IMG/VR virus record: IMGVR_UViG_3300002835_010534
Location: 1 to 23,311 of that record
DNA from: a virus
Length of the DNA: 23,311 nt
Strand: one strand, 5' to 3'
The position numbers were made by a program, and so were the translations under genes. Under the pieces are notes generated by a model that was not told where the DNA came from, did no database searches, and worked only from the letters and a program-made list of their open reading frames with translations. This document shows, one piece after another, positions 2,868 through 20,906 of this stretch (the first letter of the stretch is position 1; each line of letters opens with the position of its first letter).

Positions 2868-3869
2868 ATGGCAAAGGGACTAGATGTTGGTACAAGTTTT
2901 ATTGTTTTATCTCAAGATTCTGATGATGGAGTTGTCTATAAGGATTTTAGAGATGCCTTTTACATTATAAAACCAACCACAGTCGTTGCCACAAAAATGA
3001 TAGAAAAAGGATTATCTGGAAAAACTTTCATAAAAGATAGTGATGGGTCGTTTATTATACTAGGAAAAGACGCTATAGAAAAAGCGGTTGAGAGAAACGA
3101 CACAGCAAAAAGACCAATGTATAGGGGTGTTGTTTCTTCAAAAGAAAAAGACGCCAAAAGAATATTAGCATTTATTTTGAAAGAAGTAGTCGGAGAATCA
3201 TCAGAGCCCTTTGAAAAACTGGTTTTTTGTGTTCCAGCACAACCAGTTGATCAAGAAGATGAAGATTTTGATGTTGGTTACCATGAAGATGTTATAAAAA
3301 CAGTATTATCAGAATGTGGATATGATGCTAAAGCAATAAATGAAGCAGAGGCGTTGTGTTATGCTGAATTAGAAAATGATGATTATACTGGGATAGCAAT
3401 TAGTTGTGGTGCTGGTATGACAAATGTTTGTGTTATGCTTAATGGTGAACCAACCGTTGTCTTTAGTACCACAAAATCTGGAGACTGGGTTGATAGAATG
3501 AGTGCTGTTGCAACTGGTGAAACGGACAGTGTTGTTCAAGCAGAGAAAGAGGGTAGTGATTTTAATATAGGTGAACCTAATGATAATCCTATTCTGGCTG
3601 CCGTTTCTTCATACTATGATAGATTAATTGATTATACAACAAAACAACTATCTCATGCTTTAACAGGCCATAAGTTATTACCTAAGTTTAAAAATCCATT
3701 GACTATTGTGGTTGCTGGTGGAACATCACAAGCCAAAGGATATGTGGATATTTTTACTAAAAAATTACAAGAAAATAATTTTCCACTATCAATAAAAGAA
3801 GTAAAACACGCATCAGATCCATTACATGCTGTTTCTAAAGGATGTTTAATAGCATCAAAAGTACTATAA
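2868..3869 (+). CDS. Actin/MreB-like ATPase (ASKHA fold)
   Basis: 333 residues with the nucleotide-binding motifs of the actin superfamily in order: phosphate 1 GLDVGTSFIVL (4-14), connect 1 NEAEALCYA (158-166), phosphate 2 SCGAGMTNVCVM (179-190) and adenosine motif VVAGGTSQAKGY (281-292). AVSKGCLIAS (321-330) fits connect 2. RPMYRGVV (82-89) recalls the RPMKDGVI stretch of MreB. Bacterial and phage relatives (MreB, ParM, Alp) form filaments that move DNA or organise the envelope. The membrane protein directly upstream could anchor it. No centromere-like repeat array and no separate ParR gene are seen. Which subfamily it belongs to cannot be decided from the sequence alone. Confidence 0.82.
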   Translation: MAKGLDVGTSFIVLSQDSDDGVVYKDFRDAFYIIKPTTVVATKMIEKGLSGKTFIKDSDGSFIILGKDAIEKAVERNDTAKRPMYRGVVSSKEKDAKRILAFILKEVVGESSEPFEKLVFCVPAQPVDQEDEDFDVGYHEDVIKTVLSECGYDAKAINEAEALCYAELENDDYTGIAISCGAGMTNVCVMLNGEPTVVFSTTKSGDWVDRMSAVATGETDSVVQAEKEGSDFNIGEPNDNPILAAVSSYYDRLIDYTTKQLSHALTGHKLLPKFKNPLTIVVAGGTSQAKGYVDIFTKKLQENNFPLSIKEVKHASDPLHAVSKGCLIASKVL

Positions 3870-3873
3870 AATC

Positions 3874-3879
3874 TATAAT
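3874..3879 (+). promoter_or_regulatory. Possible -10 element (TATAAT) before protease gene
   Basis: A perfect TATAAT lies just after the actin-like stop, 53 bases upstream of the protease ATG. There is no good -35 hexamer at the usual distance (only AT-rich coding sequence), so this is a weak call in an AT-rich gap. Confidence 0.25.
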
Positions 3880-3882
3880 AGG

Positions 3883-3890
3883 GTGTATTA
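3883..3890 (+). promoter_or_regulatory. GTGTATTA motif, copy 1
   Basis: This octamer lies in the gap before the serine protease gene. Identical copies occur in the gaps at 19851-19858 and 20880-20887, always 27-49 bases before a start codon. It may be a promoter element read by the phage sigma factor; no experimental support is visible. Confidence 0.35.
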
Positions 3891-3906
3891 ATTAGTTTGG
3901 ATATCA

Positions 3907-3926
3907 ATTCCACCAGTAAGTGGAGT
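3907..3926 (+). promoter_or_regulatory. Hairpin covering the Shine-Dalgarno of the serine protease
   Basis: ATTCCAC (3907-3913) can pair with GTGGAGT (3920-3926) around the 6-nt loop CAGTAA, giving 7 bp with a single G-T pair. The 3' arm contains the protease gene's ribosome-binding GGAG (3922-3925). Folding would hide the site and lower translation. Confidence 0.5.
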
Positions 3927-3931
3927 TAGAA

Positions 3932-4696
3932 ATGAGACTAATTAAATTAATAATTCTATTTTTTTTGATCATATTATCTAATATAGGATATGCTGGGACA
4001 CGGCATCCTTTAGTTGAAGATAGTAGATATATAGATTTTGGAAGAAAATTTCCACATGTTGGAAGATTATGTGGTTCTTATAGAGATGGCAAAATATTTT
4101 GTGCATCTTCTGTTGCTATAAGAAAAAGAATAATATTAACAGCTGCTCATGTTGTTAAGAATGCAGATAAGTGTGTTATTCATATTAATAATAAAAAAAT
4201 ACATGTAAAAAATATAGTTTGTCATAGAGATTTTGAAGAAGATAATTTTGGTTGGTATGATATAGCAATATGCTCACTTAATGAAGATATAGGTCTAGAG
4301 TCTTATCCAGTGTTATATCAAGAAAATAATGAAGTTAATAAAAAATGTACAATTAGTGGATTTGGTTTAAATGGAACATTTGATTCTGGTTGTATTTACT
4401 CTGACACAGAGAGAAGAGCTGGATCAAATACTATAGACCAGATAGAAAGAGGTCTGTTGATATGCACACCATCTCGTCATATGAGCGATACAAGCCCATC
4501 TGACCTTGAGTTTTTAATTTCTTCTGGTGACAGTGGGGGTGGTTTATTCATAGATGACAGGCTGGCTGGAATCAACTCATGCGTAATGGCTATTGATAAA
4601 AAACCAGACTCAACATATGGAGATGAATCAGGACACACCAGAATTAGTGATCATATAGAATGGATTAATTTGAACATAGAAGAGATGGATAGATAG
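3932..4696 (+). CDS. Secreted trypsin-like serine protease (S1 family)
   Basis: I start at the ATG at 3932, not the in-frame GTG at 3920, because GGAG at 3922-3925 is correctly spaced for it. The product is 254 residues. Residues 1-21 form a signal peptide (MRLIK, a hydrophobic core, then a YAG cleavage site). The chymotrypsin triad is present: His73 in LTAAHVV, Asp110 in WYDIAICSL and Ser201 in SSGDSGGGLF. Several cysteines could form disulfides, which fits an exported protein. Phage genes for exported S1 proteases are unusual. The role could be modification of host periplasmic or surface proteins, or of the virion. No obvious pro-domain is seen, apart from about 25 residues between the signal and the domain. 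Confidence 0.88.
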   Translation: MRLIKLIILFFLIILSNIGYAGTRHPLVEDSRYIDFGRKFPHVGRLCGSYRDGKIFCASSVAIRKRIILTAAHVVKNADKCVIHINNKKIHVKNIVCHRDFEEDNFGWYDIAICSLNEDIGLESYPVLYQENNEVNKKCTISGFGLNGTFDSGCIYSDTERRAGSNTIDQIERGLLICTPSRHMSDTSPSDLEFLISSGDSGGGLFIDDRLAGINSCVMAIDKKPDSTYGDESGHTRISDHIEWINLNIEEMDR

Positions 4697-5491: not shown

Positions 5492-6028
5492 ATGAAAACA
5501 ATATCTAACAAAGAAACATTTCCAATTGTTCGTGGAGATCTTTTTGATTATGTTGAAAAAATCACCAGATCAGGAAATAACGGATCAAGTATTATAGTTC
5601 CACATGTTTGTAACAATATTAATGCTTTTGGTGCTGGGTTTGCTGGAGAAGTATCTAAGAATTATCCAATAGTCAAAGAAAATTATCATCTTTTAGGATC
5701 AAATTTTTTAAAGAATAATTTAGGATATGTTCAATTTATCGAAGTGTATAGAGATGCTTCTTTTGGTCATAAACTTATCTTTGCTAATATGATTGCACAA
5801 AATGGAACTGTGAGTAAAAAAAATCCAAGACCATTAAATTATTTAGCATTAGTTAAATGTATGAATCAAATTAATATGTTTATATCTAAAAATTTTAACA
5901 ATGATACCCGTGTAGAAATTCATGCTCCACGATTTGGTTGTGGATTAGCAGGAGGAAACTGGAATTTTATTAGTGATCTTATAGATGATATTTGGACTAA
6001 TAAATCGGTTGTTATATATTTAAAATGA
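5492..6028 (+). CDS. Macro-domain (ADP-ribose-binding) protein
   Basis: I choose the ATG at 5492 because it follows the previous stop by 2 bases; the in-frame ATG at 5450 would extend the protein into the cysteine-rich gene upstream. The 178 residues carry macro-domain signatures: VRGDLF (13-18), PHVCNNINAFGAGFAGEV (37-54, the nucleotide-binding loop), ANMIAQNG (98-105) and the second loop PRFGCGLAGGNW (146-157). The domain fills the protein with no extra module. Macro domains bind or hydrolyse ADP-ribose derivatives, including terminal ADP-ribose on proteins or DNA, O-acetyl-ADP-ribose and ADP-ribose-1''-phosphate. A role in NAD salvage or in undoing ADP-ribosylation-based defence is inferred. 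It overlaps the next gene by 4 bases. Confidence 0.85.
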   Translation: MKTISNKETFPIVRGDLFDYVEKITRSGNNGSSIIVPHVCNNINAFGAGFAGEVSKNYPIVKENYHLLGSNFLKNNLGYVQFIEVYRDASFGHKLIFANMIAQNGTVSKKNPRPLNYLALVKCMNQINMFISKNFNNDTRVEIHAPRFGCGLAGGNWNFISDLIDDIWTNKSVVIYLK

Positions 6029-7008
6029 CCAATAATTTTACTACTGAATCAATAATATCTTCATGTCTTAATGAAGAATTTAAAAATAATAATATCAAAT
6101 ATTTAAAATATTTTAAAGACAAACTGCAAATTCATGATGGTGAAATATTATTAAAATTTCATGATCATTCTATTGAAATAATTAAACATAAAATTTCTAA
6201 TGATAATGAATGGAGATTGCACTCAACATTAGATTTAATCTTAAATACAATTAAAGAATATAACCTACAATTAAATTGTTATGTTATAATAAATATTAAT
6301 GATGGAGTTATATGTGGTGAAAAATTTACAAGATTGTCAACTGTTGGTAGACACAAAGATAGCACTCATGTAGGTATACCTGACTCTTTATCTTGGAGTT
6401 ATATTAATAATGGAACTTTCAAGAAAATACTTAGTGAAGATATCAATTTTTCTGATAAAAAGGATATAATAGTATTTAGGGGTGCTGATACCGGTAAAGT
6501 AAGAGATAATTTATTAAATCAAAGAGTTTATTTTTGTAATAAGTATCATGATTATGATAAATTAGATGCTAAGATTACTAAACTTATAGGCTATAATAAA
6601 GACTTTTTGCAATCACATAATATACAAAGTATAAATATTATTAGTGATCCATTATCTACACAAGATCAACTTAAATATAAATATATCTTATATATATATG
6701 GAAATTCTGTTTCCACCGATAGACTGTTATGGAATTTAGCCTCAAATTCTATTACGATACAAGTTGAACCATTACCTTGCGAATATGATTATATTTGGTA
6801 TCATCATTTTCTATTACAACAAAATTTAATACCTTCATTATCAGAAAATAACTTTATAGAAGATTTTAATAATTTATTAACAAATACAAATCTATCTGAA
6901 CTAAAAATTAAACAACAAAACTTCGCAAATATACTAATAGATAAAAAAATAAATATACAATATACTAAAGAAGTTTTAGTAAAATATAATACTATATATA
7001 ATAGTTAA
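6025..7008 (+). CDS. GT90-family (CAP10/LpsA-like) glycosyltransferase
   Basis: 327 residues. The C-terminal two thirds carry the CAP10-family layout: IVFRGADTGKVRDN (149-162), then KYKYILYIYGNSVSTDRLLWNLAS (217-240), the nucleotide-sugar site, then VEPLPCEYDYIWYHHF (247-262). The N-terminal part (1-140) is less conserved and likely supplies acceptor contacts. The family transfers xylose, glucose or similar sugars in fungal capsule, animal O-glucosylation and bacterial LPS core. There is no signal peptide or membrane segment, so it acts in the cytoplasm. It opens the glycan island, overlaps the macro-domain gene by 4 bases and ends 4 bases before glf. Donor and acceptor are unknown. Confidence 0.78.
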   Translation: MTNNFTTESIISSCLNEEFKNNNIKYLKYFKDKLQIHDGEILLKFHDHSIEIIKHKISNDNEWRLHSTLDLILNTIKEYNLQLNCYVIININDGVICGEKFTRLSTVGRHKDSTHVGIPDSLSWSYINNGTFKKILSEDINFSDKKDIIVFRGADTGKVRDNLLNQRVYFCNKYHDYDKLDAKITKLIGYNKDFLQSHNIQSINIISDPLSTQDQLKYKYILYIYGNSVSTDRLLWNLASNSITIQVEPLPCEYDYIWYHHFLLQQNLIPSLSENNFIEDFNNLLTNTNLSELKIKQQNFANILIDKKINIQYTKEVLVKYNTIYNS

Positions 7009-7012
7009 TGCA

Positions 7013-8101
7013 ATGAAGTATGATTTTCTCATTATTGGTGCGGGGATATTTGGTTCTGTGTGTGCAAGAGAACTTACAGACAAAGGTTTTTCCTGTTTAG
7101 TCTTAGAAAAAAGAGATCATATAGGAGGAAACTGCTATACATATAAAGAATCAAAGATAGATATTCATAAATATGGTGCTCATATATTTCATACATCTAG
7201 TGAAAAAATATGGAACTATATCAACAAATTTAGCAAATTTAACAACTATAGACACAGTGTTGTTGCTAATTATCAAAACAAAATAATTCCTCTCCCATTT
7301 AACATGTGGACTTTTAATAGTATCTGGGGAGCTATTACCCCAACAGAAGCAATTGGTATTATCAATAGTCAGAAATTTCATGGGACCCCTTCAAATTTAG
7401 AAGAACAAGCAATTTCAATGGTTGGTAAAGATATATATGAAATACTCATTAAAGGCTATACAAAAAAACAGTGGATGAAAGATCCAAAATTTTTGCCAAA
7501 AGAAATTATAAAACGTATTCCTATTAAGTTTATTTATAATAATGATTATTTTGATGACCAATTTCAAGGTATTCCTACAGATGGATATACAAAAATATTT
7601 GAAAATATGTTAGATGGTATAGATGTTCAACTAGATAGTGACTATTTTGAAAATAGAAATTTTTATGATCAACTAGCCAGATATAAAATCTATTCTGGCC
7701 CAATAGACAGATACTATGATTATACTTATGGTAAATTAGAATATAGATCATTAAATTTTCAACATGAGACACTATCAATTGAAAACTATCAAGGGTCTAG
7801 TGTTGTTAATTACACAGATGAATCGATCCCATTTACTAGAATTTTAGAGCATAAACACTTTAATCCAAACAACAAATCCGATAAGACCATTATCACCAAA
7901 GAATTTTCTATATCTTGGACTGGTGCTGAAGACCCAATTTATCCAATTAATGATACGACAAATAATGATATATATAAAAAATACAAAGACATTCCTAATT
8001 CCAAAACTATTTTTGGTGGAAGATTAGCAGAATATAGATATTATGATATGCATCAGGTCATAGGATCTGCATTATCAACAGTTTCACAAATTATAAAATA
8101 A
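7013..8101 (+). CDS. glf: UDP-galactopyranose mutase
   Basis: 362 residues, the normal length for bacterial Glf. Features in order: FAD dinucleotide motif GAGIFG (9-14), LEKRDHIGGN (31-40), the substrate-side YGAHIFHT (54-61), YTKKQW in the middle, and the C-terminal FGGRLAEYRYYDMHQVIG that closes the flavin site and carries conserved arginines. The flavoenzyme interconverts UDP-galactopyranose and UDP-galactofuranose in the cytoplasm, the only known source of galactofuranose for LPS, capsule or other glycans. Its place beside GT90 and GT4 genes suggests that one of them uses UDP-Galf. No key motif seems to be missing, so it is probably active. Confidence 0.95.
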   Translation: MKYDFLIIGAGIFGSVCARELTDKGFSCLVLEKRDHIGGNCYTYKESKIDIHKYGAHIFHTSSEKIWNYINKFSKFNNYRHSVVANYQNKIIPLPFNMWTFNSIWGAITPTEAIGIINSQKFHGTPSNLEEQAISMVGKDIYEILIKGYTKKQWMKDPKFLPKEIIKRIPIKFIYNNDYFDDQFQGIPTDGYTKIFENMLDGIDVQLDSDYFENRNFYDQLARYKIYSGPIDRYYDYTYGKLEYRSLNFQHETLSIENYQGSSVVNYTDESIPFTRILEHKHFNPNNKSDKTIITKEFSISWTGAEDPIYPINDTTNNDIYKKYKDIPNSKTIFGGRLAEYRYYDMHQVIGSALSTVSQIIK

Positions 8102-8109
8102 TCATAATC

Positions 8110-8643
8110 ATGATGAATAGACTAAATAATCAAAGAGTATATCTTGCTGGTGCTATGGATAGAGTAGCAGATAGAGGTATTGGATGGAGAGATGATATCA
8201 CGCCATTTCTTCAAGATTTAGGCGTGGTAGTCTTTAATCCAATTAAAAAACCTTCTGCTATAGGTATGGAAGATTTTACTACTCATCAAATAAAACAAAA
8301 ATTGAAAAATGAGTGTAATTATGATGAACTATCTAAACTTATGAAAGTTATACGATCAGTAGATTTACGATTAGTAGATATTAGTGATTTTCTGGTTGTT
8401 AATCTTGATTTAGATACGCATCCTTGTGGTACACTAGAAGAAATTTTTCTTGCTAATAGAGAGAAAAAACCTATCATAATTCATATGGTTCAAGGAAAAC
8501 AAAATGCTCCAGACTGGTTATTTGGAACAATTCCTCATGAAATGATTTTTTCATCATGGAATGAGATCAAAAATTATTTGAGTCATATTAATTGTTCAGA
8601 AATTATAAACGATCATAAAAGATGGTACTTTTTTAATGTCTAA
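8110..8643 (+). CDS. Nucleoside 2-deoxyribosyltransferase-like protein
   Basis: 177 residues. The N-terminus RVYLAGAMD (9-17) followed by GWRDDITPFL (25-34) and VVFNP (40-44) is the usual start of this Rossmann-like family. VDISDFLVVNLD (89-100) and CGTLEEIFLANREKKPIII (106-124) supply the acidic residues and the Glu (110/111 region) expected to act as nucleophile. The family cleaves or exchanges the N-glycosidic bond of deoxynucleosides or deoxynucleotides; related phage proteins act in salvage or base modification. Two ATG codons start the protein (8110 and 8113). Its location between glf and glycosyltransferase genes raises the chance of a sugar-nucleotide substrate, but that is inference. 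Confidence 0.72.
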   Translation: MMNRLNNQRVYLAGAMDRVADRGIGWRDDITPFLQDLGVVVFNPIKKPSAIGMEDFTTHQIKQKLKNECNYDELSKLMKVIRSVDLRLVDISDFLVVNLDLDTHPCGTLEEIFLANREKKPIIIHMVQGKQNAPDWLFGTIPHEMIFSSWNEIKNYLSHINCSEIINDHKRWYFFNV

Positions 8644-9394
8644 TACAGTTATTTTAACATCATATTTTTCTCAAAAAACCCATCCTAATGATCCAAATGA
8701 TAAGGGTGTAGTTGGTAGAGGTAGCGATGGAAGAGTTTGGCAAAATAGTTTTGAATATATTAAAACATGGTATGATTCTATCCAAAGCCTAGGCTTAGAT
8801 GCTAGAATTTTCCATGATGATCTTTCTGATGATTTTGTAAAACAATATTCTACTGATAAAATACAATTTATAAAAATACAAATGTCTGTATTTTCTAATT
8901 TAGATTGGAGATTTTTTTGTTATAGAAATTATTTAAATAATAATTATCATGAGAGTGTGTTTTTAACAGATTGTTCTGATGTTAAAATAGTAAAAAATCC
9001 AGGTAATATTATTAAAGAATATTCAGATACAAATTATTTCATTTGTAAAGATAATATTACAACCAGAGATTTCAATTATATCAAAGTTCATTCCCATTTT
9101 AAATGGGATAATTTAGAATGGTTTATCAATCATCACAATAACAATAGTTTAGATCTATTAAATATGGGTGTGATAGGCGCTAAATATGAAGATATGCTCG
9201 ATTTTTTAGATAAATTTTGCGTAGTCAGATTAAAAATGAATAATCCTGAATTTGCACAAGCAGATATGTGGGTTGGTCAATATATCTTCAGACATTTATT
9301 GTCTTCAAAAAAGAAACTTATAGGATATCCATTTACTAGTGATTTTAAACAATATCAAAATGATAGAGAGGATGTATATTTTATACACAAATGA
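8636..9394 (+). CDS. Putative GT-A glycosyltransferase
   Basis: 252 residues. The order VILTSYF, alternating strands, then SVFLTDCSDVKIV (107-119) looks like a GT-A Rossmann half with an acidic metal-site motif (TDCSDV, 111-116). LLNMGVIGAKYEDMLDFLDKF in the C-terminal half resembles the acceptor/donor loop of several such enzymes. WRFFCYRNYL (91-100) lies just before. No signal peptide is present. It overlaps the previous gene by 8 bases and the next by 4. Specific family, donor and acceptor cannot be assigned; the fold call rests on motif order only. Confidence 0.6.
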   Translation: MSNTVILTSYFSQKTHPNDPNDKGVVGRGSDGRVWQNSFEYIKTWYDSIQSLGLDARIFHDDLSDDFVKQYSTDKIQFIKIQMSVFSNLDWRFFCYRNYLNNNYHESVFLTDCSDVKIVKNPGNIIKEYSDTNYFICKDNITTRDFNYIKVHSHFKWDNLEWFINHHNNNSLDLLNMGVIGAKYEDMLDFLDKFCVVRLKMNNPEFAQADMWVGQYIFRHLLSSKKKLIGYPFTSDFKQYQNDREDVYFIHK

Positions 9395-10314
9395 GTATTC
9401 AAAAAATAATGCTTATAAGCGATGGAGATATTCCTGTTCCTCCAAACGGATGGGGTGCATTAGAAAGAGTAGTCTGGAATTATAGCCAGCACTTGATTAA
9501 ATTAGGATATGATGTGCTAATATCAAACCATCAAGACTCTTCAAAGGTATTAGAAGACTGGAGAAGATTCAAGCCAGATTTAGTACATAATCATATAGGA
9601 AAACACTGGGAAGCAATGTCTCTCATAAATGGGTGTAAAAAAATAGTTACAAATCATGGTGGCGCTTTTATCTTTCATAAACCATTTTATGATCATATAT
9701 TCACAACTTATTTCAGAGATTGTGACTTATATTTATTAACAGATGAGGAAAAAATTTTTTATGACTCATATAATATTTGGAATACAAATATAATTGTTCC
9801 TAATGGTGTTAATTCAGAAATCTTTAAACATTCTGTAATAAGAGATGGAGCTATTTATTTAGGTAAAATAAGTATAAGAAAAAAACAATCATACTATCAA
9901 AAACTAGGTATAAATTGTTATTTTGCTGGTAATACCGAAGATAATACATTTAATTATTCTCATCCAAAATATTTGGGAGAATGGACCCATGAAGAAGTTG
10001 CGGATAAATTATGTAAATTTAATACATTAGTATTATTAAGTAGTTCAGAATTACAGCCATTAGTATGTCTAGAAGCATTATGTAGTGGCCTTGGATTAGT
10101 TCTATCAAAACCATGTGCTCAATCATTAGATACATCTAAACCATGGATTAGTGTGATTCCAGATGATAAATTAGATGATATAAATTTTATTAATAATGAA
10201 ATTGCCAGAATTTCTAATTTAGCAGAGATTCATAGAGAAGATGTAATAAAGTATGGTCAATCTTTTGATTGGACTAATATTGTTAATAAATATGTGGAAC
10301 TAATCAATGCCTAA
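9391..10314 (+). CDS. GT4-type glycosyltransferase (GT-B fold)
   Basis: 307 residues. The N-terminal domain begins MLISDGDIPVPPNGWGALERV (7-27), matching the glycine-rich acceptor loop of GT4 enzymes. VPNGVNSEIF (136-145) marks the interdomain region and AIYLGKISIRKKQ (154-166) starts the C-terminal domain. The GT4 EX7E signature is E220-x7-E228 in SSSELQPLVCLEAL, which binds the sugar nucleotide. It is shorter than most GT4 enzymes (350-400), with the missing length in the N-terminal domain. It probably transfers a sugar from a UDP- or GDP-donor in the cytoplasm. ATGA overlap upstream and 8-base overlap downstream indicate tight coupling. Confidence 0.8.
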   Translation: MSIQKIMLISDGDIPVPPNGWGALERVVWNYSQHLIKLGYDVLISNHQDSSKVLEDWRRFKPDLVHNHIGKHWEAMSLINGCKKIVTNHGGAFIFHKPFYDHIFTTYFRDCDLYLLTDEEKIFYDSYNIWNTNIIVPNGVNSEIFKHSVIRDGAIYLGKISIRKKQSYYQKLGINCYFAGNTEDNTFNYSHPKYLGEWTHEEVADKLCKFNTLVLLSSSELQPLVCLEALCSGLGLVLSKPCAQSLDTSKPWISVIPDDKLDDINFINNEIARISNLAEIHREDVIKYGQSFDWTNIVNKYVELINA

Positions 10315-10999
10315 ATTGTCAGCTTACTATGCTTGCTATAAAAATAGGAAAGCCATAGAGTTTGTATTGTCTAATTTTAGAAAATTTTTTCCAGATGTTT
10401 TTATCTGTTTAATTTCTGATGGTGGAGATGATTTTAGCGATTTAGCTAAAAAATATAATACTGAATACTATTATATGAATAATTTATTTCAGTCTGGACC
10501 CATAAATGTATATTCGTCAGAAAGAATGATAGAGTGGTGGGATAGGCAAAAAATGGTTTGTGATATTTCTAAATCGGACTATACAATTATTCTTGAGGAC
10601 GATGTGTACACTATTAATTCTTTTGAAATTAATGAAGATTTTTCACTAAAGGGCGTATCAAGACATCAAACAAATTTATTTACAAAACAAATGTCAAAAG
10701 ATATATTTGATTATGGACAAATAGATAATGATTATTATGGCATGTGTGGTGGAAGCGTATATAATAGTCAAATATTTAAAGATATCTATAATGATGTTAT
10801 TGTAGATATAAAAAATAATCATGATTATCTAATTAATAATAGTTTTGATAGTTATTATAAACTTGGTGCTGTTGATGCTAACATAACTTATCATTTTAAT
10901 AAAAGAAGTTATAAATATCTAGATGCTGAGTGGTTAACTGAAGATAAAAACAATACTAATAAGCCAATGATTCATGGCTGGAAAGAACACTATGTCTGA
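10307..10999 (+). CDS. Putative GT-A-like glycosyltransferase, paralogue of 12654-13337
   Basis: 230 residues. SAYYACYKNRKAIEFVLSNF opens the protein, ICLISDGGDD (33-42) follows, and the likely metal site is TIILEDDVYT (93-102, EDDV at 97-100). YYGMCGGSVYNSQIF (143-157) lies where the other island member at 12654-13337 has a matching CGG stretch, and the acidic motif sits at the same residue number in both, so they are probably old duplicates. This suggests a GT2/GT-A type enzyme with Asp-rich metal binding. There is no membrane segment, and donor and acceptor are unknown. Confidence 0.62.
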   Translation: MPKLSAYYACYKNRKAIEFVLSNFRKFFPDVFICLISDGGDDFSDLAKKYNTEYYYMNNLFQSGPINVYSSERMIEWWDRQKMVCDISKSDYTIILEDDVYTINSFEINEDFSLKGVSRHQTNLFTKQMSKDIFDYGQIDNDYYGMCGGSVYNSQIFKDIYNDVIVDIKNNHDYLINNSFDSYYKLGAVDANITYHFNKRSYKYLDAEWLTEDKNNTNKPMIHGWKEHYV

Positions 11000-12062
11000 A
11001 AAAATTGAAGGAAAAAGCTTTACAAGCAATACTACCAAATTACTTAAACATCTGGATAAACTTCAAGTCTTGCAAGATGGAGGCAAGCCATCGCCTGTGA
11101 TGGCTCATATCTCTATTATTAATGCCTGCAATTTGACTTGTAGTTTTTGTTGTTTTGCAAATAGAGACATGAAAGACAGACTTCCTCTAGACAGAATAAA
11201 AAAAGCACTTGATGCTTTTAAAAAAATAGGAGTTACTGGAATAGAATACACTGGTGGGGGTGAGCCAACTATACATCCTGATTTTGAAGAAATAATAAGA
11301 TACACTCATAGTCTCGGATTTAAGATAGGACTTTGTACCAATGGAGCAAGGATTGGTAAAGACAGACCCATCAAACAAGATCTTGTTAAATTATTTTCTT
11401 GGATTAGACTTGGTATGTATGGGTTTTATGAAGGATATGAATATGATCTGAGCGTTTTTGATGGGATAGAAACAAAACCTTCAGCAGCATATGTTTGGGA
11501 TGAAAACCTTGCCACTTCAGACAATCCAAATATAACAGGATTGTGGACTGATCTTAGTAAGAAAAAACTAGCAACCAATTTTCAAACACCCGATAAATTC
11601 TATAAAATGCTTGACTGGGTAGAAAATAATAAAATACCTTGTAGAATAGCATTTAATGCTATTAAAAATGTTGAAGAAACCAAGAAAGATATTGTCTCTA
11701 TTAGAAAAGCTATCAATGATTATGAGTCAACAAATAATATACAACTCAAGTATGCTTTTTTATCTGACTTTAATTTTAAGGGCGAAAGAAGAAATGATCA
11801 TTGCTATATGCATTTAGTAAAACCATTCTTGTTTACTGACGGATATATCTATGCCTGTCCATCTGCGGAACTTTCTTTAGAAAATAATTACAACTATGTT
11901 CCCGAATCACAGTTTATGGTTTGCGATATTGATCATATAGAGGAATTTTATAGTAAACCAGGACAAGTAAGGCATCACGCTTGCCATTATTGTAAGTACG
12001 CTATGCAAAACGAATTAATAGACGATATATTAACGGAGACAGCACATAATGAATTCGCATAA
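10992..12062 (+). CDS. Radical SAM enzyme with SPASM-like C-terminal cysteines
   Basis: I use the ATG at 10992, preceded by GGAAAG at a good distance; an in-frame ATG at 10974 would add six residues. The 356-residue protein has the radical SAM cluster motif CNLTCSFC (C46, C50, C53 in this numbering, a CX3CX2C pattern) and the SAM-binding TGGGEPTIHP. After the barrel, cysteines in YACPSAEL, FMVCDI and RHHACHYCK (all in the last 75 residues) could hold an auxiliary iron-sulfur cluster. Radical SAM enzymes of this layout modify peptides, sugars or lipids. Its place between glycosyltransferases and a methyltransferase gene fits sugar or glycan modification, but the substrate is unknown. It overlaps both neighbours by 8 and 14 bases. 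Confidence 0.85.
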   Translation: MSEKIEGKSFTSNTTKLLKHLDKLQVLQDGGKPSPVMAHISIINACNLTCSFCCFANRDMKDRLPLDRIKKALDAFKKIGVTGIEYTGGGEPTIHPDFEEIIRYTHSLGFKIGLCTNGARIGKDRPIKQDLVKLFSWIRLGMYGFYEGYEYDLSVFDGIETKPSAAYVWDENLATSDNPNITGLWTDLSKKKLATNFQTPDKFYKMLDWVENNKIPCRIAFNAIKNVEETKKDIVSIRKAINDYESTNNIQLKYAFLSDFNFKGERRNDHCYMHLVKPFLFTDGYIYACPSAELSLENNYNYVPESQFMVCDIDHIEEFYSKPGQVRHHACHYCKYAMQNELIDDILTETAHNEFA

Positions 12063-12657
12063 ATTTAATAAAGATTACTATGAAGATGGTGTTAGACAAC
12101 ATTTATCTGGATATCAAGAATATAAATGGATGCCAACTAGATCAATCCCAGAAGCTATAGATATTAAAAATAATTTCACATTCAAGACATGCGTTGATTA
12201 TGGGTGTGCAAAAGGATTTTTAGTACATGCTCTTAGAATACTTGGGGCTGATGCTTATGGGGAAGACATTAGTGAATACGCTATAAATAATTGTCATCCA
12301 TCAGTTAAGCCATATATCTCATTACCTAACGATAAAAATTATGATCTATTAATAGCAAAAGATATATTAGAACATGTATCAGAAGAAAATCTACCAGATT
12401 TATTAAGGACTTTTACTAGTAAAGCTAAGGATTTCTTTTTTGTAATACCTCTTGGCGACAATAATATGTTTAGGATAAGAGAATACGAAGTAGATATCAC
12501 CCACGTAACAAAGAAAGACGAAGAATGGTGGATTAATTTATTTAATCAAAACGGTATAAGTATAAGTAACTTTTCATATAGTCTTGGATCAGTTAAAGAC
12601 AAATGGACATCAACATATCCTTACGGTAATGGATTTTTTATTGGCAAAAAAAAATGA
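12049..12657 (+). CDS. SAM-dependent methyltransferase (class I)
   Basis: 202 residues. Motif I is CVDYGCAKGFLVHAL (48-62) with the SAM-binding DYGCAKG, then YGEDISEYAI (70-79) supplies the acidic residue that binds the ribose. DLLIAKDILEHV (99-110) is the typical motif IV/post-IV region of small-molecule methyltransferases. The N-terminal YYEDGVRQHLSGYQEYKW looks like the lid helix. It is not a DNA methyltransferase by motif (no DPPY or PC motif). It overlaps the radical SAM gene by 14 bases, which suggests that both act on the same product, perhaps O-methylating a sugar. GGAG at 12034-12037 is its likely ribosome-binding site. Confidence 0.82.
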   Translation: MNSHKFNKDYYEDGVRQHLSGYQEYKWMPTRSIPEAIDIKNNFTFKTCVDYGCAKGFLVHALRILGADAYGEDISEYAINNCHPSVKPYISLPNDKNYDLLIAKDILEHVSEENLPDLLRTFTSKAKDFFFVIPLGDNNMFRIREYEVDITHVTKKDEEWWINLFNQNGISISNFSYSLGSVKDKWTSTYPYGNGFFIGKKK

Positions 12658-13337
12658 AAATACAAGCATTGTTGTTCATGTGTAACGATTTCGATCGAGC
12701 TAAATTCACATTAGATAATTTTTCAAAACATAATCCAGATATACCAATATCTGTTATAAATTCTGGTGGAAAATCACCAAAAAAATTTTTAGATCATAAT
12801 AAAAATATCATAAAATTTATTGACGAAGAAGATCTATGGCATAGAAGAACTCATTGTGGCAGAGGTGGGTTTGGATTAAAATATATTGATGTATTATTTA
12901 GATATGGATTAAATTCTAATTTTACTCATACTTTATATTTAGAAACAGATGTCTTAACAAATAGAAAAATAACTATTGAGCCAAAATATGATTTGTCTGG
13001 AGTATTTATTGAATGTGGCCCAAAAGAACAAATACTTTGGGACTATTTTAATATCTCTGATTACAGATATCATACTGGATGTGGAGGAACAATATTTACA
13101 ACTAATTTTTTTAATACTATATCTAGTGATATAGATAAATTTAATATGTTTAAAAAATTGTATGATTTATTTCCAGAACACTATTATATGGATTTGATTC
13201 TTACGTTAGTAGCAAGATATAGCAATTTAACTTATGGTCACTGGGAAGAAATATCTGATGTCAGAGCACATATGGTAGGAAATAATTTTGTTGGTGGTAA
13301 CATATCAGCTACATTAGTACATGGATATAAAATTTAA
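12654..13337 (+). CDS. Putative GT-A-like glycosyltransferase, paralogue of 10307-10999
   Basis: 227 residues. It shares layout with the protein at 10307-10999: an N-terminal strand, FTLDNFSKHNPDIPISVINSGG (18-39, compare FVLSNFRKFFPDVFICLISDGG), the acidic motif LYLETDVLT (94-102, ETDV at 97-100) and TGCGGTIFTTNFF (141-153). The middle has LWHRRTHCGRGGFGLKYIDV (61-80), a possible acceptor loop absent from the paralogue. It overlaps the methyltransferase gene by 4 bases and is followed by guaC after 2 bases. The exact activity is unknown; the fold is inferred from motif order and from the paralogue. Confidence 0.62.
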   Translation: MKIQALLFMCNDFDRAKFTLDNFSKHNPDIPISVINSGGKSPKKFLDHNKNIIKFIDEEDLWHRRTHCGRGGFGLKYIDVLFRYGLNSNFTHTLYLETDVLTNRKITIEPKYDLSGVFIECGPKEQILWDYFNISDYRYHTGCGGTIFTTNFFNTISSDIDKFNMFKKLYDLFPEHYYMDLILTLVARYSNLTYGHWEEISDVRAHMVGNNFVGGNISATLVHGYKI

Positions 13338-13339
13338 AT

Positions 13340-14476
13340 ATGCAAAAAATAATTAATGAAATTAAACTAGATTTTGATAATGTTCTTATTCGCCCAAAAA
13401 GATCAACTCTTAATAGTAGGTCAGAAGTAAGTTTATCTAGAAACTTCCATTTTAAATATTCTCCCAGAGAATTACTTTGCACACCAATTATGGTTGCAAA
13501 TATGGATACTGTTGGAACCTTTAAAATGGCTAGATCATTAGGAGTTCAAGGAGCAATAACTTGTTTACATAAGCATTATAGTGTTAATGAATATGTTGCT
13601 TTCTACACAGATCCTAGTGTTGTAAATAAAAATCTCGCATTTTACTCAGTTGGAACAGGTGCAAAAGATATAGAGAAACTTGATATGGTTTTTAGCCAAA
13701 TTAAAAAGTTCAACTTTCCCCTGCCCAATATTTGTGTTGATGTGGCCAATGGATACTCTGAGAAATTTGTAAAAACAGTATCTAATATAAGAAAACTATG
13801 CGATGAAGTAGTTATAATGGCGGGCAATGTTGTTACTCCAGAAATGACTGAAGAATTAATAATTCATGGCAAAGTTGATATAGTCAAGGTTGGTATAGGA
13901 TCTGGTAGTGTATGTACCACTCGTTTAAAAACTGGCGTAGGATACCCTCAGTTGAGTGCCGTGATGGAATGTACGGACGCTGCTCATGGTCTTGGTGGAC
14001 ACGTTTGCTCAGATGGTGGTTGTAAAGTAGTGGGAGATGTTTGCAAAGCATTTGGTGCAAATAGTGACTTTGTTATGTTGGGAAGTATGTTCGCTGGAAC
14101 TGATGAGTGTGAAGGAGAATGGAAATATGAATATTTAGTTGAAGCAGGATCTTGCGCTCCTGGTTTTTGGCAACCTGTAGATCCAGAAAACGATAACATA
14201 AAAAGAAAAATTTCTTTAAAATATTATGGAATGAGTTCATTAGACGCCATGAATAAACATCATAATGGAGTAGCAAAATATAGAACAGCAGAAGGTAAAT
14301 CAGTTACCGTTGCATATAAAGGCCCAGCAGAATATATTATATCAGATATTTGTGGAGGACTTCGTAGTGCTTGCACATATATTGGGGCCGATAAAATTAA
14401 AGACTTCGGTAAAAAAACAACATTTATTTTAGTAAACGACACACACAATAGGATTTATGAAAATGCAAAAACTTAA
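13340..14476 (+). CDS. guaC: GMP reductase
   Basis: 378 residues, close to bacterial GuaC, with no CBS domains. The IMPDH/GMPR barrel is evident: KLDFDNVLIRPKRSTL (9-24), MVANMDTVGTF (51-61), the catalytic loop GIGSGSVCTTR with Cys192, then KTGVGYPQLSAV and GGHVCSDGGC. YGMSSLDAM and GGLRSACTYIGA near the end match E. coli GuaC much better than GuaB, so I call GMP reductase. The enzyme uses NADPH to convert GMP to IMP and ammonia in the cytoplasm, moving guanine nucleotides toward adenine. That could help an AT-rich genome replicate (inference). It sits inside the glycosyltransferase run and overlaps the next gene by 20 bases. Confidence 0.93.
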   Translation: MQKIINEIKLDFDNVLIRPKRSTLNSRSEVSLSRNFHFKYSPRELLCTPIMVANMDTVGTFKMARSLGVQGAITCLHKHYSVNEYVAFYTDPSVVNKNLAFYSVGTGAKDIEKLDMVFSQIKKFNFPLPNICVDVANGYSEKFVKTVSNIRKLCDEVVIMAGNVVTPEMTEELIIHGKVDIVKVGIGSGSVCTTRLKTGVGYPQLSAVMECTDAAHGLGGHVCSDGGCKVVGDVCKAFGANSDFVMLGSMFAGTDECEGEWKYEYLVEAGSCAPGFWQPVDPENDNIKRKISLKYYGMSSLDAMNKHHNGVAKYRTAEGKSVTVAYKGPAEYIISDICGGLRSACTYIGADKIKDFGKKTTFILVNDTHNRIYENAKT

Positions 14477-15539
14477 TTTAAATTGTCCGCTTGGATTAAC
14501 GGGGTACGGTATAACCTCACTAAATATTTATAAAGAACTTAGACCTAAACTTGATATAACACTATTTCCAATAGGTGGTTCAGTATCGTTAGATAGTGAA
14601 GACGATAAAAAATCTATTGTAGAAGATACTAATAAAATAATTAATTATGATCCAAATTCACCATATCTCAAAATATGGCATCAATATGATTTAGCTACTA
14701 GGATTGGCAAAGGTAAATATGGAGCCCTTACGTTCTTTGAAATTGATAGGTTGAAACCATTAGAGACACACATGATTAATTGTACAGATACTGTCTTTGT
14801 TGCTTCAAAATGGGCAAAAGACATACTATTAAACAATGGTGTCACAACAAATATTATCATTTCTCCTTTAGGGGTTAATCATAATATATTCAATATTCAT
14901 GCCAAACCACCTATGAAAAAAGAGAATAATAGCTACGTATTTATTAATATTGGAAAATGGGAACTTAGAAAAGGACATGATATTTTATTAGAAGCATTTA
15001 ATAATGCGTTTACAGAAGCTGATGACGTTGAGTTGTGGATGGTTAATCATAATCCTTTCTTATCTCAAGAAGACAATGAAAAATGGGCTAAGATGTATCT
15101 AAATAGTAAGCTTGGTAAAAAGATTAGAATCCTACCGAGACTACCTAATCATTCAGATTTAGCTGGTATTATTTCGTTATCGGATTGTGCTGTTTTTCCA
15201 GCAAGAGCAGAAGGATGGAATAATGAAGTTATGGAAGTTATGGCTATGAACAAGCCTGTTATTCTAACTAATTACTCTGCTCATACAGAATATGCAACTA
15301 AAGATAATTCTTATTTAGTAGATATTGATAACTTAACAGAAGCACAGGATGATAAGTTTTTTGATGGTTATGGAAAATGGGCTGATCTTGGAGATAGACA
15401 GATAGAACAATTGGTTGAACATATGAGGTTCGTGTATAATAATAATATCAAAGATAATATAAACGGATTTAATACGGCCAAACAATATACTTGGACAAAT
15501 ACAGCTAATATTATTTATAACGATCTCTATGGAAATTAA
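14457..15539 (+). CDS. GT4-type glycosyltransferase (GT-B fold)
   Basis: 360 residues, the usual GT4 length. LGLTGYGITSLNIYKEL (12-28) is the N-terminal glycine loop, FVASKWAKDILL (114-125) and ISPLGVNHNIF (135-145) lead to the C-terminal domain, which begins FINIGKWELRKGHDILLEAF (162-181). The EX7E signature is E252-x7-E260 in ARAEGWNNEVMEVMAMNKPVI. The enzyme probably transfers a sugar from a nucleotide donor; the donor could be UDP-Galf from Glf, but nothing shows it. It overlaps guaC by 20 bases; AGGA stands 4 bases before the first ATG, so the ATG at 14463 is also possible. It closes the glycan island. Confidence 0.85.
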   Translation: MKMQKLNLNCPLGLTGYGITSLNIYKELRPKLDITLFPIGGSVSLDSEDDKKSIVEDTNKIINYDPNSPYLKIWHQYDLATRIGKGKYGALTFFEIDRLKPLETHMINCTDTVFVASKWAKDILLNNGVTTNIIISPLGVNHNIFNIHAKPPMKKENNSYVFINIGKWELRKGHDILLEAFNNAFTEADDVELWMVNHNPFLSQEDNEKWAKMYLNSKLGKKIRILPRLPNHSDLAGIISLSDCAVFPARAEGWNNEVMEVMAMNKPVILTNYSAHTEYATKDNSYLVDIDNLTEAQDDKFFDGYGKWADLGDRQIEQLVEHMRFVYNNNIKDNINGFNTAKQYTWTNTANIIYNDLYGN

Positions 15540-15541
15540 TT

Positions 15542-16051
15542 ATGCCAATACCATCAAAAAAATCAAACGAAAATAAAGAAAAATTTGTTAGTCGCTGCAT
15601 GAGTAGTGAAGTAATGAAAAAGGATTATCCAGATTCTAAACAAAGAGTTGCAATATGTTTAGGTCAAACAAGAACAAAAGGTAATTTAATTGAAGAAGTT
15701 CATGATGAATTATTTGCTAAAAATTGTTCTTGGGATGATGAATGGGATGAGTTTATTTGGGAAATTGAAGCACAGGAGATATATGATGAAGATGGTAAAG
15801 TCATAGCAGCAGAAAAAAATGGTCGCAAAGTGACATTAAATAAACCATTTAGGACTCCAGATGGCCCTAAAAAGTTTAGTGTTTATGTAAAAAATGAAAG
15901 TGGAAATGTAGTTAAGGTTAACTTTGGTGATCCTAATATGGAAATCAAGAAAGATATTCCTGCTAGACGAAAAAGTTTTAGAGCAAGAATGAGATGTGAA
16001 ACTCCTGGCCCAAAATGGAAAGCAAGATATTGGGCATGTAAATCATGGTAA
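15542..16051 (+). CDS. Phage head-associated protein with two small conserved modules
   Basis: 169 residues. The N-terminus (MPIPSKKSNENKEKFVSRCM, then YPDSKQRVAICLGQ) matches, from memory, a short module often found within phage prohead-protease or portal polyproteins. The C-terminal 45 residues (DPNMEIKKDIPARRKSF, then CETPGPKWKARYWACKSW) form a second basic, cysteine- and tryptophan-rich module seen in other large-phage proteins of unknown role. The acidic segment in between (residues 50-80) may be disordered. I infer a head morphogenesis role because of these modules and the structural genes that follow. It begins 2 bases after the GT4 gene. Confidence 0.68.
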   Translation: MPIPSKKSNENKEKFVSRCMSSEVMKKDYPDSKQRVAICLGQTRTKGNLIEEVHDELFAKNCSWDDEWDEFIWEIEAQEIYDEDGKVIAAEKNGRKVTLNKPFRTPDGPKKFSVYVKNESGNVVKVNFGDPNMEIKKDIPARRKSFRARMRCETPGPKWKARYWACKSW

Positions 16052-16091
16052 ATTTAAAATAATATTTATTAACATTATATAGAGGTGCAAT

Positions 16092-16574
16092 ATGGATCGT
16101 ATTCATGATATTTTAAATTCTGTTAACGAAACAGTTAGTAAGAAAATATCGAAAGCTGAAGATGGTGATTTTACCAAAGTTGAAGATATGGAAGTAGAAT
16201 CTCCAGAAATGGAACTTATGGAATATAAATACGATTTTTATCAAATGAGTTTAGGCTCAATAATGTCAATTGCTAAACATGCACAAGCAATAGTAGACGC
16301 ATTAGAAAATCCATCAGTTAAAGAAGGCTTGACAGAGAGTTGGCTACAGGGTAAAATCGCATTAACAGAAGATTATATGGTTACCATCCACAATTTTCTC
16401 ATGTTCGGAGAAACTGAAACCGATACTGAAGGAGCGGAGGCAGCAAAGAATCTACCTGGTTTATGGGAAAATATTCGCAAGAAAAAAGAAAAAGAAGGTA
16501 AGAAATATCGTCCAGCAAAGCCTGGGGATAAAGATAGACCAGATCCAAAACAGTGGAAAAAATTGACAGACTGA
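16092..16574 (+). CDS. Phage structural or head-maturation-related protein, 160 aa
   Basis: A ribosome-binding AGAGG precedes the ATG at 16092. The N-terminal half is helical and acidic; SIMSIAKHAQAIVDALENPSV and LTESWLQGKIALTEDYM lie in the centre. The C-terminal 40 residues, LPGLWENIRKKKEKEGKKY followed by PAKPGDKDRPD, resemble the basic GLWxNI tails that, as I recall them, occur in phage head-maturation proteins. No catalytic motif is visible. The gap before it (16052-16091) contains only AT-rich sequence and its ribosome-binding site. It is probably a capsid or scaffold-associated protein (inference). Confidence 0.68.
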   Translation: MDRIHDILNSVNETVSKKISKAEDGDFTKVEDMEVESPEMELMEYKYDFYQMSLGSIMSIAKHAQAIVDALENPSVKEGLTESWLQGKIALTEDYMVTIHNFLMFGETETDTEGAEAAKNLPGLWENIRKKKEKEGKKYRPAKPGDKDRPDPKQWKKLTD

Positions 16575-16625
16575 TTTAACGGTTAATAAAAGATTTTTAG
16601 GACATTATTTAAAAGGACAAAAAGT

Positions 16626-17264
16626 ATGATTATACCATCAATTGGTAAACAGAAGATTAAATATAAAGATCATTCAGGTATTCAATTTGAATCCCTAGAT
16701 TTTTATTTGAACTTATCTCAAAAAATTATAGCAAAATTAGCACCAACATTTTTTTCTGGACTATCCAAAGAAATGCTAAAGAATGAGGATGCTGTATCGT
16801 TCGTTGCTAATGCTATAATGATGGGTGATTGGAGATGGGAAAAGAGCGACGAAAAAAAGCAAAATAAAACATTGTATTCTTATAGAAATCAATGTGCTAT
16901 TTGGGCTATTAAAACATATATTACTAAAAAATATAAATTAAATAAAAGTAAAAAGAGATCATTCTCTATGTCCTCTTTTAGTTTATCTGACGAAGATGCG
17001 TTATTGACAGAACTTATTTCTGATCAAAAACAAAAGGATCCTATTGATATTCTTATAAAAGAAGAAGAAAATAATACTACATGTGGTCTTGTCAATGAGC
17101 TTCTTAATTCTGATATTCTCACAGACAAACAAAAAGACCATATTAAATTATACTTTTTAGAGAACTATACTCTAGAAAAAATTGGAGAAAAATATGATGT
17201 TACAAGAGAGGCTATCAGACAAAGCATAAAGTCTTCAATTAAAAAGATAAGAGAGTTAGTATGA
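16626..17264 (+). CDS. Phage sigma factor (sigma-70 family)
   Basis: 212 residues. Residues 48-104 correspond to region 2: MLKNEDAVSFVANAIMMGDW, then the region 2.4-like SYRNQCAIWAIKTYITKKYK, preceded by a Lys/Gln-rich turn. A charged linker (105-155) leads to region 4 at 165-212: LTDKQKDHIKLYFLENYTLE and the helix-turn-helix KIGEKYDVTREAIRQSIK, which matches sigma-70 region 4.2. It lacks regions 1.1 and 3. T4 gp55, the late sigma, has region 2 and a clamp-binding tail; this protein differs by keeping a normal region 4. AAAGGA stands about 10 bases upstream of the ATG. It precedes virion genes and probably directs late transcription. Confidence 0.85.
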   Translation: MIIPSIGKQKIKYKDHSGIQFESLDFYLNLSQKIIAKLAPTFFSGLSKEMLKNEDAVSFVANAIMMGDWRWEKSDEKKQNKTLYSYRNQCAIWAIKTYITKKYKLNKSKKRSFSMSSFSLSDEDALLTELISDQKQKDPIDILIKEEENNTTCGLVNELLNSDILTDKQKDHIKLYFLENYTLEKIGEKYDVTREAIRQSIKSSIKKIRELV

Positions 17265-17686
17265 AACTATATACGTTTTTTAATATAATAAGTAGCGATA
17301 TAAATAAAAACGAAAATTATATATTATCAACAGATAAAAATAGTATTATATTACCATATTCAGAAATATCAACACCAAGAGTAATGATGAATGAAATTAA
17401 ATATAATGTTAAAAATATGTTTGATACTGGTATGGTAAACTTTATCGAAGAAGTTATTATATCATATATAGATATTCAAAATGAGATCCTTCTTGAATAT
17501 GTTACAAAATTAGATAATAATAATTTTAATCTTGACCAAGACTTGTTTTTATTGTGTGGAGTTATAACTAATAAAAAGTCTACATCTAAGTTATTTTGGA
17601 CTAAGTTTGACTATGCTCTAGATGAGAAAATAAACAATCCAATTTTTGCTCTTATCGACACAACTATACAAAAAAGTTTATTATGA
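17261..17686 (+). CDS. Hypothetical protein, 141 aa
   Basis: Unrecognised. The composition is Asn/Ile-rich. It starts KLYTFFNIISSDINKNE, has a helical middle (MMNEIKYNVKNMFDTGM and FIEEVIISYIDIQNEILLEY) and ends in ALIDTTIQKSLL. No signal peptide, membrane segment or metal motif is visible. The ATGA overlap with the sigma gene and with the next gene shows translational coupling in a run of five genes (17261-19821). Role unknown. Confidence 0.72.
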   Translation: MKLYTFFNIISSDINKNENYILSTDKNSIILPYSEISTPRVMMNEIKYNVKNMFDTGMVNFIEEVIISYIDIQNEILLEYVTKLDNNNFNLDQDLFLLCGVITNKKSTSKLFWTKFDYALDEKINNPIFALIDTTIQKSLL

Positions 17687-18072
17687 TCAATTATATTAAA
17701 AGTTTATTCTCTTCAAAAAAGAAATCTCAATCTAAAACAGATGAATCTATTATAGATGTAATTATATCTCTTAATAAAAATGCAGGAATAGATGTGTCTA
17801 TTTTTATAGACGATACCAATAAAGATATAGATCGTGATATAATAGAATATTCAGAAAAGTGTGCGGAGTTTTTTCATATAATAAATAGTGGTAAACTAAA
17901 AAAGCAAATCCTTGATATACTAATAAATCAAATTAAAAAAGAAGATAATAATTTATTAATTGATAATATTGTTACTTTTTGGTCTATTATAGAAAAACAA
18001 AAAAGAAAACCAAAATTTGAAAAAGCTTTCATCTGTCCTACAGAAGTATTTACTAAACACATATCAAAATGA
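17683..18072 (+). CDS. Hypothetical protein, 129 aa
   Basis: Unrecognised. It begins MINYIKSLFSSKKKSQ, a short amphipathic or basic start that could touch membrane or nucleic acid, then alternates acidic and helical stretches (SEKCAEFFHIINSGKLKKQI, DNIVTFWSIIEKQKRKP). There is no catalytic motif. It is coupled by ATGA overlaps on both sides between the sigma-factor and ClpP-like genes. Its small size and helical nature would fit an adaptor, but this is not supported further. Confidence 0.7.
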   Translation: MINYIKSLFSSKKKSQSKTDESIIDVIISLNKNAGIDVSIFIDDTNKDIDRDIIEYSEKCAEFFHIINSGKLKKQILDILINQIKKEDNNLLIDNIVTFWSIIEKQKRKPKFEKAFICPTEVFTKHISK

Positions 18073-18494
18073 AAAAATCATATACTATCGTATGGGAAAA
18101 ATGGAGAGATCCTTTTGGTAGTGATGAAGATGGGCAGGACCACCCTTCAATTACTGAACAACCAGACGATGAAGAAATATATAATCCATACGAAGAAGAC
18201 GATAGTACTATAAGTACAAATAGTAAAGAAGTCAAATGTAAAATATTAATAACTCCTATGGGAGCTATTCCATATAATGAATTTACCGCATCTGGTAAAA
18301 TTTTTAATTTCTGGACCGGTCATTCTAATTTTACCATAACAAATAATATTGTTGATATCATAGAAGATACTGAAGGTGTTGAGACATTAGATGTATTTAC
18401 TAGATATAGATTTAGGATTGCTATTGGCAAAGCGTTTAGTGACTCTGAAGTAATGAGAAAAATAAACTCAAACATATATGAGTATATCAAATGA
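18069..18494 (+). CDS. Hypothetical protein, 141 aa, phage-conserved pattern
   Basis: Residues 10-55 are acidic (FGSDEDGQDH, then many Asp/Glu). The C-terminal 85 residues form a compact block: KILITPMGAIPYNEF, FNFWTGHSNFTITNNIVDII, then GVETLDVFTRYRFRIAIGKAF. I recall similar sequences in other tailed-phage genomes near structural genes, but no function is known to me. It has ATGA overlaps with both neighbours and directly precedes the ClpP-like gene, so a link to head maturation is possible. Confidence 0.7.
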   Translation: MKKSYTIVWEKWRDPFGSDEDGQDHPSITEQPDDEEIYNPYEEDDSTISTNSKEVKCKILITPMGAIPYNEFTASGKIFNFWTGHSNFTITNNIVDIIEDTEGVETLDVFTRYRFRIAIGKAFSDSEVMRKINSNIYEYIK

Positions 18495-19821: not shown

Positions 19822-19850
19822 TTAATTTTAATTCAAATCAATCGTATTGT

Positions 19851-19858
19851 GTGTATTA
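19851..19858 (+). promoter_or_regulatory. GTGTATTA motif, copy 2 (candidate late promoter)
   Basis: This copy lies in the 67-base gap before the strongly translated gene at 19889, 38 bases upstream of its ATG. TATAAC at 19865-19870 could also serve as a -10 box but has no good -35. The same octamer precedes genes at 3932 and 20907. Confidence 0.35.
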
Positions 19859-19888
19859 TTTTAATATAACACCAAAAAGGAGCTAATA

Positions 19889-20449: not shown

Positions 20450-20488
20450 TATTTAGTTATAATAAATCATATTCTTTTTACCGAAATT

Positions 20489-20522
20489 AAGTCATCTTAC
20501 TATAAAGTTCGATGACTTTTTT
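20489..20522 (+). terminator. Intrinsic terminator after the virion protein gene
   Basis: AAGTCATC (20489-20496) pairs fully with GATGACTT (20511-20518) around a 14-base loop, followed directly by T residues to 20522. It lies 40 bases after the stop at 20449 and 18 bases before the next ATG. It would end or weaken transcription from the strong gene upstream. Confidence 0.75.
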
Positions 20523-20539
20523 CTTGAAAGGGTTCTACT

Positions 20540-20860: not shown

Positions 20861-20879
20861 ATTGCAATTAATCCATTTG

Positions 20880-20887
20880 GTGTATTA
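20880..20887 (+). promoter_or_regulatory. GTGTATTA motif, copy 3
   Basis: Third intergenic copy, 27 bases upstream of the ATG at 20907. It is followed by AT-rich bases and the ribosome-binding GAGGT at 20894-20898. Upstream AATCC...TTTG resembles the bases before copy 2. Confidence 0.35.
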
Positions 20888-20906
20888 ATAATTGAGGTAA
20901 TATAAT

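Follow-up and report, generated by a model that had tools for sequence, protein, structure and literature searches.

The window is a 23,311-base stretch of DNA from a virus record. On its plus strand, as for all features of the locus described here, positions 3932-4696 encode a trypsin-like serine protease of 254 aa (Pfam PF00089 (Trypsin), E 9e-17; trypsin/elastase matches in PDB). His73, Asp110 and Ser201, which we take to be the catalytic triad, are invariant in 20 aligned relatives. The first 22 residues, judged by eye, resemble a Sec signal peptide, and together with the trypsin-like domain match this makes the protease probably an exported one, as an initial annotation had supposed. The protease found no match among isolated phage records, either as DNA or as protein.

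The gene upstream, at 2868-3869, encodes an actin-like protein (Pfam PF25216 (Volactin), E 1.7e-64) and is a possible source of read-through RNA, as terminator-like sites are absent between 3869 and 3932. Two distant homologues of this protein (35% and 32%) occur in uncultured phage records of 485 and 595 kb. Among viral contigs, 379 candidate stretches encode relatives of the Volactin-family protein, 80 of which were kept, and the fetched stretch contained a protease match in 65 of these 80 (one of them, L029, a fragment). In relatives, the two genes are separated by an HNH gene, as at 4413-4718 of L042. A same-species contig of 91,952 bases, G001, matches two flanking parts of the window at 96-97%. 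Positions 6024-13340 are missing from the blastn matches of the window against G001 and constitute a replaceable block, with ORFs that by eye resemble glycosyltransferases. Other genes of the phage resemble IMP dehydrogenase/GMP reductase (13340-14476 of the window) and ClpP (18491-19171).

The initial annotation had pointed to a 7-bp stem, ATTCCAC/GTGGAGT (3907-3913/3920-3926), that holds in its 3′ arm the GGAG used by the protease ATG. The stem is present as described, and in the computed fold it is really 8 bp long, with one U-G pair and three G-C pairs. Its 5′ arm AATTCCAC begins one base earlier than noted before (3906-3913), and is followed by the loop CAGTAA (3914-3919) and the 3′ arm GTGGAGTT (3920-3927). 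The Shine-Dalgarno sequence (SD), GGAG at 3922-3925, lies inside this 3′ arm, 6 nt before the ATG, and its predicted unpaired probability is 0.00-0.01 whether the transcript starts at 3880 or at 3895. Beyond a bulge, two further pairs are predicted (3904/3905 with 3930/3929). The inner hairpin is enclosed by a previously unreported outer helix of 11 bp with one U-G pair, found in both the MFE and the centroid fold, whose 5′ arm lies at 3888-3898 and whose 3′ arm, at 3935-3945, extends into codons 2-5. The start codon (3932-3934) is thereby predicted to sit in an internal loop between both helices, and the interrupted helix has about 21 pairs overall.

When 3880-3960 was compared with 200 dinucleotide shuffles of itself, its folding energy was -18.9 kcal/mol versus -10.7 (sd 2.4) for the shuffles, a z of -3.4, and none of the 200 was as stable. 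A stem of at least 8 bp with at least three G-C pairs over the SD was found in 2 of 400 shuffled leaders with the SD kept fixed, and in 1 of 537 other genes from four related contigs. In folds of the leader alone, 13% of 60 shuffles reach the same energetic sealing of the SD, so the inner hairpin by itself is only mildly unusual in energy. It is nevertheless long for its setting. An A/T-rich leader with an SD and a promoter motif could happen to fold without any regulation, a reading favoured by the leader-only shuffles and opposed by the whole-fold z and by the stem length.

The computed cost of opening the ribosome site at the protease start, 13.1 kcal/mol, is the highest in the window, whose 37 genes average 4.8 (sd 2.75) and from which the site was chosen post hoc. 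It is also at the top of the 108 rows of G001, which come from overlapping pieces. This cost is reached by 12 of 761 gene starts in four contigs, and the footprint cost by 7 of the 761, a set that includes the G001 copy of the protease. The hairpin observation was confirmed and extended. The hairpin is not among the window's eight sites resembling an intrinsic terminator (a G+C-rich stem, then a T run). Rfam at gathering score gave no match in the window or in five G001 pieces (L014-L018), and only sub-threshold matches near the hairpin. In G001 (L018), a string resembling part of a hammerhead motif was discarded, as it falls within a coding region, the remainder of the motif is missing and there is no Rfam match.

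In contigs L001, L002 and L010, the structure is unaltered, and the single base that differs between L002 and the window within 3861-3960 is outside it. The near-identical contigs have zero changes in 3880-3946. Because zero changes over 67 bases at 96-97% identity would have a chance of about 0.17 by our arithmetic, the unchanged structure in these contigs is uninformative on selection. The next relatives are at most 60% identical and their leaders are unlike that of the window; scans of viral contigs found no protease relatives at 60-95% protein identity. With the close contigs invariant and the distant leaders dissimilar, the alignment yielded no readable covariation, which had been suggested as a sign of the stem. 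The stem sequence does not recur in other protease clusters. The earlier idea had been tied to conservation of the stem in relatives; the stem sequence is not conserved beyond near-identical contigs, which is what a chance fold would give, but a hidden start site in general is.

That hiding was examined as a property of the protease family. From 155 loci with a protease hit, 8 were dropped and the 147 usable ones were grouped into 64 clusters at 75% protein identity (in an earlier comparison, 2 short leaders were dropped from 47 distinct ones). The mean opening cost was 8.66 kcal/mol (footprint 11.31) over the 64 clusters versus 5.71 (8.33) over 755 other genes of four related contigs, with protease leaders lower in G+C (0.267 versus 0.324 in other genes). 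The protease excess persists when the comparison is limited to other genes that have a good SD (5.72, n=394), an intergenic leader (6.18, n=296) or the GTGTA motif (5.80, n=66), and also against volactin leaders (5.36, n=30), RuvB-like leaders (5.13, n=38) and leaders of the 2557 ORF family (6.91, n=21, p 0.0024). Genes with a hydrophobic N-terminus average 6.96 (n=52) and proteases are still above them (p 3.7e-4); the family effect is partly common to such genes.

Stems that seal the SD (at least 5 bp, 3 G-C) were counted in genes with a recognised SD, which leaves out 6 of the 64 clusters and 218 of the 755 control genes. They were found in 9 of 58 protease clusters versus 6 of 537 other genes (p 1.4e-6), or in 8 of 57 clusters without that of the window (p 8.5e-6), although these and the above p-values are too small, and the case overstated, as the protease clusters are mutually related. 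The corresponding counts were 2 of 216 for intergenic-leader genes and 73 of 2280 for shuffled protease leaders. The sealing stems are of unrelated sequence (CCCTTT/AAAGGG in L172, ACCTC/GAGGT in L179, CCTCT/GGAGG in L199), and L165 has a 16-bp stem that includes the ATG. The energy of the SD hairpin in the leader alone was tried as a family signal, with 260 sampled genes as the control, and rejected because it was not above shuffles (median z 0.06; 4 of 64 below 0.05). By the computed enrichment, start sites are hidden more often and more strongly in this protease family than among the other genes that related phages carry.

In a swap test, the leader of each cluster was combined in turn with the first codons from all the others. 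The proteases' own leader and coding start are more occluded than swapped pairs by 0.84 kcal/mol (permutation p 0.00035), whereas two control sets (48 of 50 genes in the first and 48 sampled genes in the second) showed the reverse, -0.61 and -0.50, own pairs being more open. The strongest cases were L150, L203, L094 and L085. In one group, to which L203 and L007 belong, the 12-13 bases after the motif described below pair with codons 5-9. The window's own leader is ordinary in this test, ranking 13 of 64. Because this leader is occluded at least as much by 12 of 63 foreign coding starts, the outer helix here may be a chance pairing in A/T-rich sequence. Such foreign starts favour chance as the origin of the whole structure too. 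Chance is a fair rival at this single locus; the excess seen across the family relative to four kinds of control genes and the opposite sign of the swap test in controls speak against it. On balance, we regard a purely accidental fold as rather unlikely.

A promoter-like motif, GGTGTAT, lies at 3882-3888 and is followed by A/T-rich sequence to about 3894. Among hexamers upstream of genes, GTGTAT has the greatest strand asymmetry in G001 (7 versus 0) and G009 (10 versus 1), and in G011 it is present (7 versus 2) without being top-ranked. By computed position, 7 of its 9 intergenic copies in G001 are 27-59 nt before a same-strand ATG. Its window copies at 3883, 19851 and 20880 stand before the protease, the 19889 gene and the 20907 gene, respectively. 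In 48 of the 64 protease clusters, GTGTA[TAC] is found 20-70 nt upstream, and alignment of the 48 sites gives GGTGTAT, then an A/T-rich stretch. The same combination recurs before genes of G001, G009, G011, G012 and the window.

We infer from this recurrence that GGTGTAT is a promoter. Since some genes have an SD that follows the start of GTGTAT by about 15 nt, transcription would begin within about 14 nt of the start of the motif, which puts the putative start of the protease transcript at about 3893-3897. A sigma-like protein encoded at window 16626-17264 might read the motif. In many relatives the motif falls inside the C-terminal coding part of an upstream gene, as in the HNH gene of L042, and its conservation there may be protein-driven; in that gene, whose final codons hold GTGTAT, the promoter may limit changes at the protein's end and the reverse. 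Ten proteins downstream of the motif were scanned, giving one tail fibre, one weak portal match and one ribonucleotide reductase. Because the genes that carry it include both tail fibre and ribonucleotide reductase, the motif class is not clearly late.

Two other promoter candidates were set aside. A long pattern, GTGTATTWAAWWAGG with at most 2 mismatches, occurred 3, 4, 7 and 14 times in four contigs versus 7, 14, 6 and 9 times for the backward control (both strands), and enrichment was limited to the short motif core. TATAATA at 3874-3880 was the first candidate; it was put behind GGTGTAT since the latter recurs in relatives and TATAATA does not. It is a possible promoter, and a start there would retain the full outer helix.

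The two transcript forms differ in predicted footprint cost, which is 17.1 kcal/mol for a start at 3880 and 10.2 for a start at 3895. The cost from SD to AUG drops just from 11.1 to 8.9 on trimming to 3895, with the SD paired in both. A transcript from the motif should thus lose most of the outer helix and keep the inner hairpin.

This layout was compared with known systems. PMC3014915 describes T4 genes e, soc, 49 and I-TevI as having the SD and/or AUG held in a helix, long early transcripts of gene e as silent, its late-promoter transcripts as devoid of the 5′ part of the structure, and the promoter as sitting in the DNA of the structure's 5′ strand. For gene e, protein output from the structured RNA is 100-fold lower. 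Like gene e, the phage protease is predicted to have its SD and/or AUG sequestered by a helix when transcripts read through from upstream. A candidate promoter motif overlaps the 5′ arm that begins the window's outer helix. Unlike gene e, the inner hairpin of the protease seals the SD and persists in the putative promoter transcript. Given the motif-based promoter and start, the transcript would lack the 5′ part of the structure for the outer helix but not for the inner hairpin. Further differences from T4 are the motif, GGTGTAT rather than TATAAATA, the gene, a serine protease, and the fold and promoter, here predicted from sequence. The T4-type late promoter TATAAATA has seven plus-strand sites in the window (6630 to 21084), none in the protease leader. 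Because the outer helix would work as in T4, the inner one differs and TATAAATA is absent from the leader, we class the protease leader as a variant of the gene e kind, not a member. In a literature search at the level of search results, no paper was found naming this protease leader.

The initial annotation had proposed a T4-style hairpin that would keep the gene silent on early read-through RNA. In a full timer of the gene e type, a later phage promoter in the 5′ arm would moreover produce well-translated RNA. The sequestered SD and the motif that overlaps or adjoins the outer 5′ arm agree with such a timer, as does the fall in footprint cost on trimming. Some distant clusters show the same layout in other sequences with big drops (10.7 kcal/mol in L150, 10.7 in L197, 9.0 in L165, 7.6 in L203 and 7.1 in L094), and no terminator-like site separates the upstream gene. 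However, the trimmed RNA keeps the hairpin, leaving the SD unpaired at a probability of at most 0.01. Family-wide, cutting at the motif lowers the cost by a mean of 2.33 kcal/mol for proteases versus 2.18 for other genes (p 0.25), a loss of at least 4 kcal/mol is seen in 11 of 48 proteases versus 6 of 45 other motif genes (p 0.18), and trimmed protease leaders are still costlier than controls (9.46 versus 6.15). Promoter trimming was therefore dropped as a family signal, the protease drop being no larger than that of other genes. With a motif class that is not clearly late besides, an early/late switch is possible, but the family data do not favour it and we consider it doubtful.

Hairpins of translational coupling offer another comparison. 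In L179, the SD-sealing stem ACCTC(ATAAATAA)GAGGT has the preceding gene's stop codon in its loop, and in L179, L159, L164 and others the upstream stop is in or near the sealing stem, at a distance of about 30 nt from the protease ATG. This arrangement suggests translational coupling in these relatives. In the window, unlike these, the upstream stop codon (3867-3869) is 19 nt ahead of the outer helix, too far for a ribosome that terminates there to be expected to touch the helix.

As the long and the short transcript are both predicted to hide the start site, a release step would be useful. The structure could then be a site for binding by an RNA-binding protein or for cutting by a double-strand RNase that frees the start, a conditional switch released in trans, to which the long interrupted helix would lend itself. 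Relatives have no conserved loop or sequence, and the Rfam searches of the window and the five G001 pieces gave only sub-threshold matches near the site, so that such a release in trans looks improbable. SD-sealing hairpins are typical of RNA thermometers, and one is present here. Nevertheless, the predicted unpaired probability of the SD is at most 0.002 at 4, 15, 20, 25, 30 and 37 °C, and a thermometer is very hard to credit.

The reading we prefer is that the start site is concealed by the protease mRNA itself and that the structure restrains translation of the exported protease, to which we assign a probability of roughly 0.6. An SD in the inner hairpin and a start codon in the internal loop would slow 30S binding and keep the output of exported protease low. 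Read-through RNA from the actin-like gene would form the complete structure. A transcript from GGTGTAT would be without most of the outer 5′ arm and cost about 10 instead of 17 kcal/mol to open, with the SD still paired. As a net effect, read-through RNA would be almost silent, and RNA from the gene's own promoter would be translated at a low, possibly conditional, level. Restrained translation of the exported protease is the likely effect and is better supported than a T4-style early/late switch.

A broader proposal is more tentative. In related phages, occlusion may be kept while the RNA sequence turns over freely, with leader and first codons co-evolving and the promoter often lying in the helix 5′ strand, where its use would partly unlock the gene. 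A logic like that of T4 gene e might thus have persisted, or arisen anew many times, while the sequence itself was not conserved. If true, start-site structure would restrain a class of phage genes beyond those for lysis and homing endonucleases. Opening cost would be the only visible trace of the constraint, with neither sequence conservation nor covariation to reveal it, and ordinary RNA-family searches would therefore miss it. The statistic of own versus swapped leaders and coding starts would then be a simple way to look for such genes.
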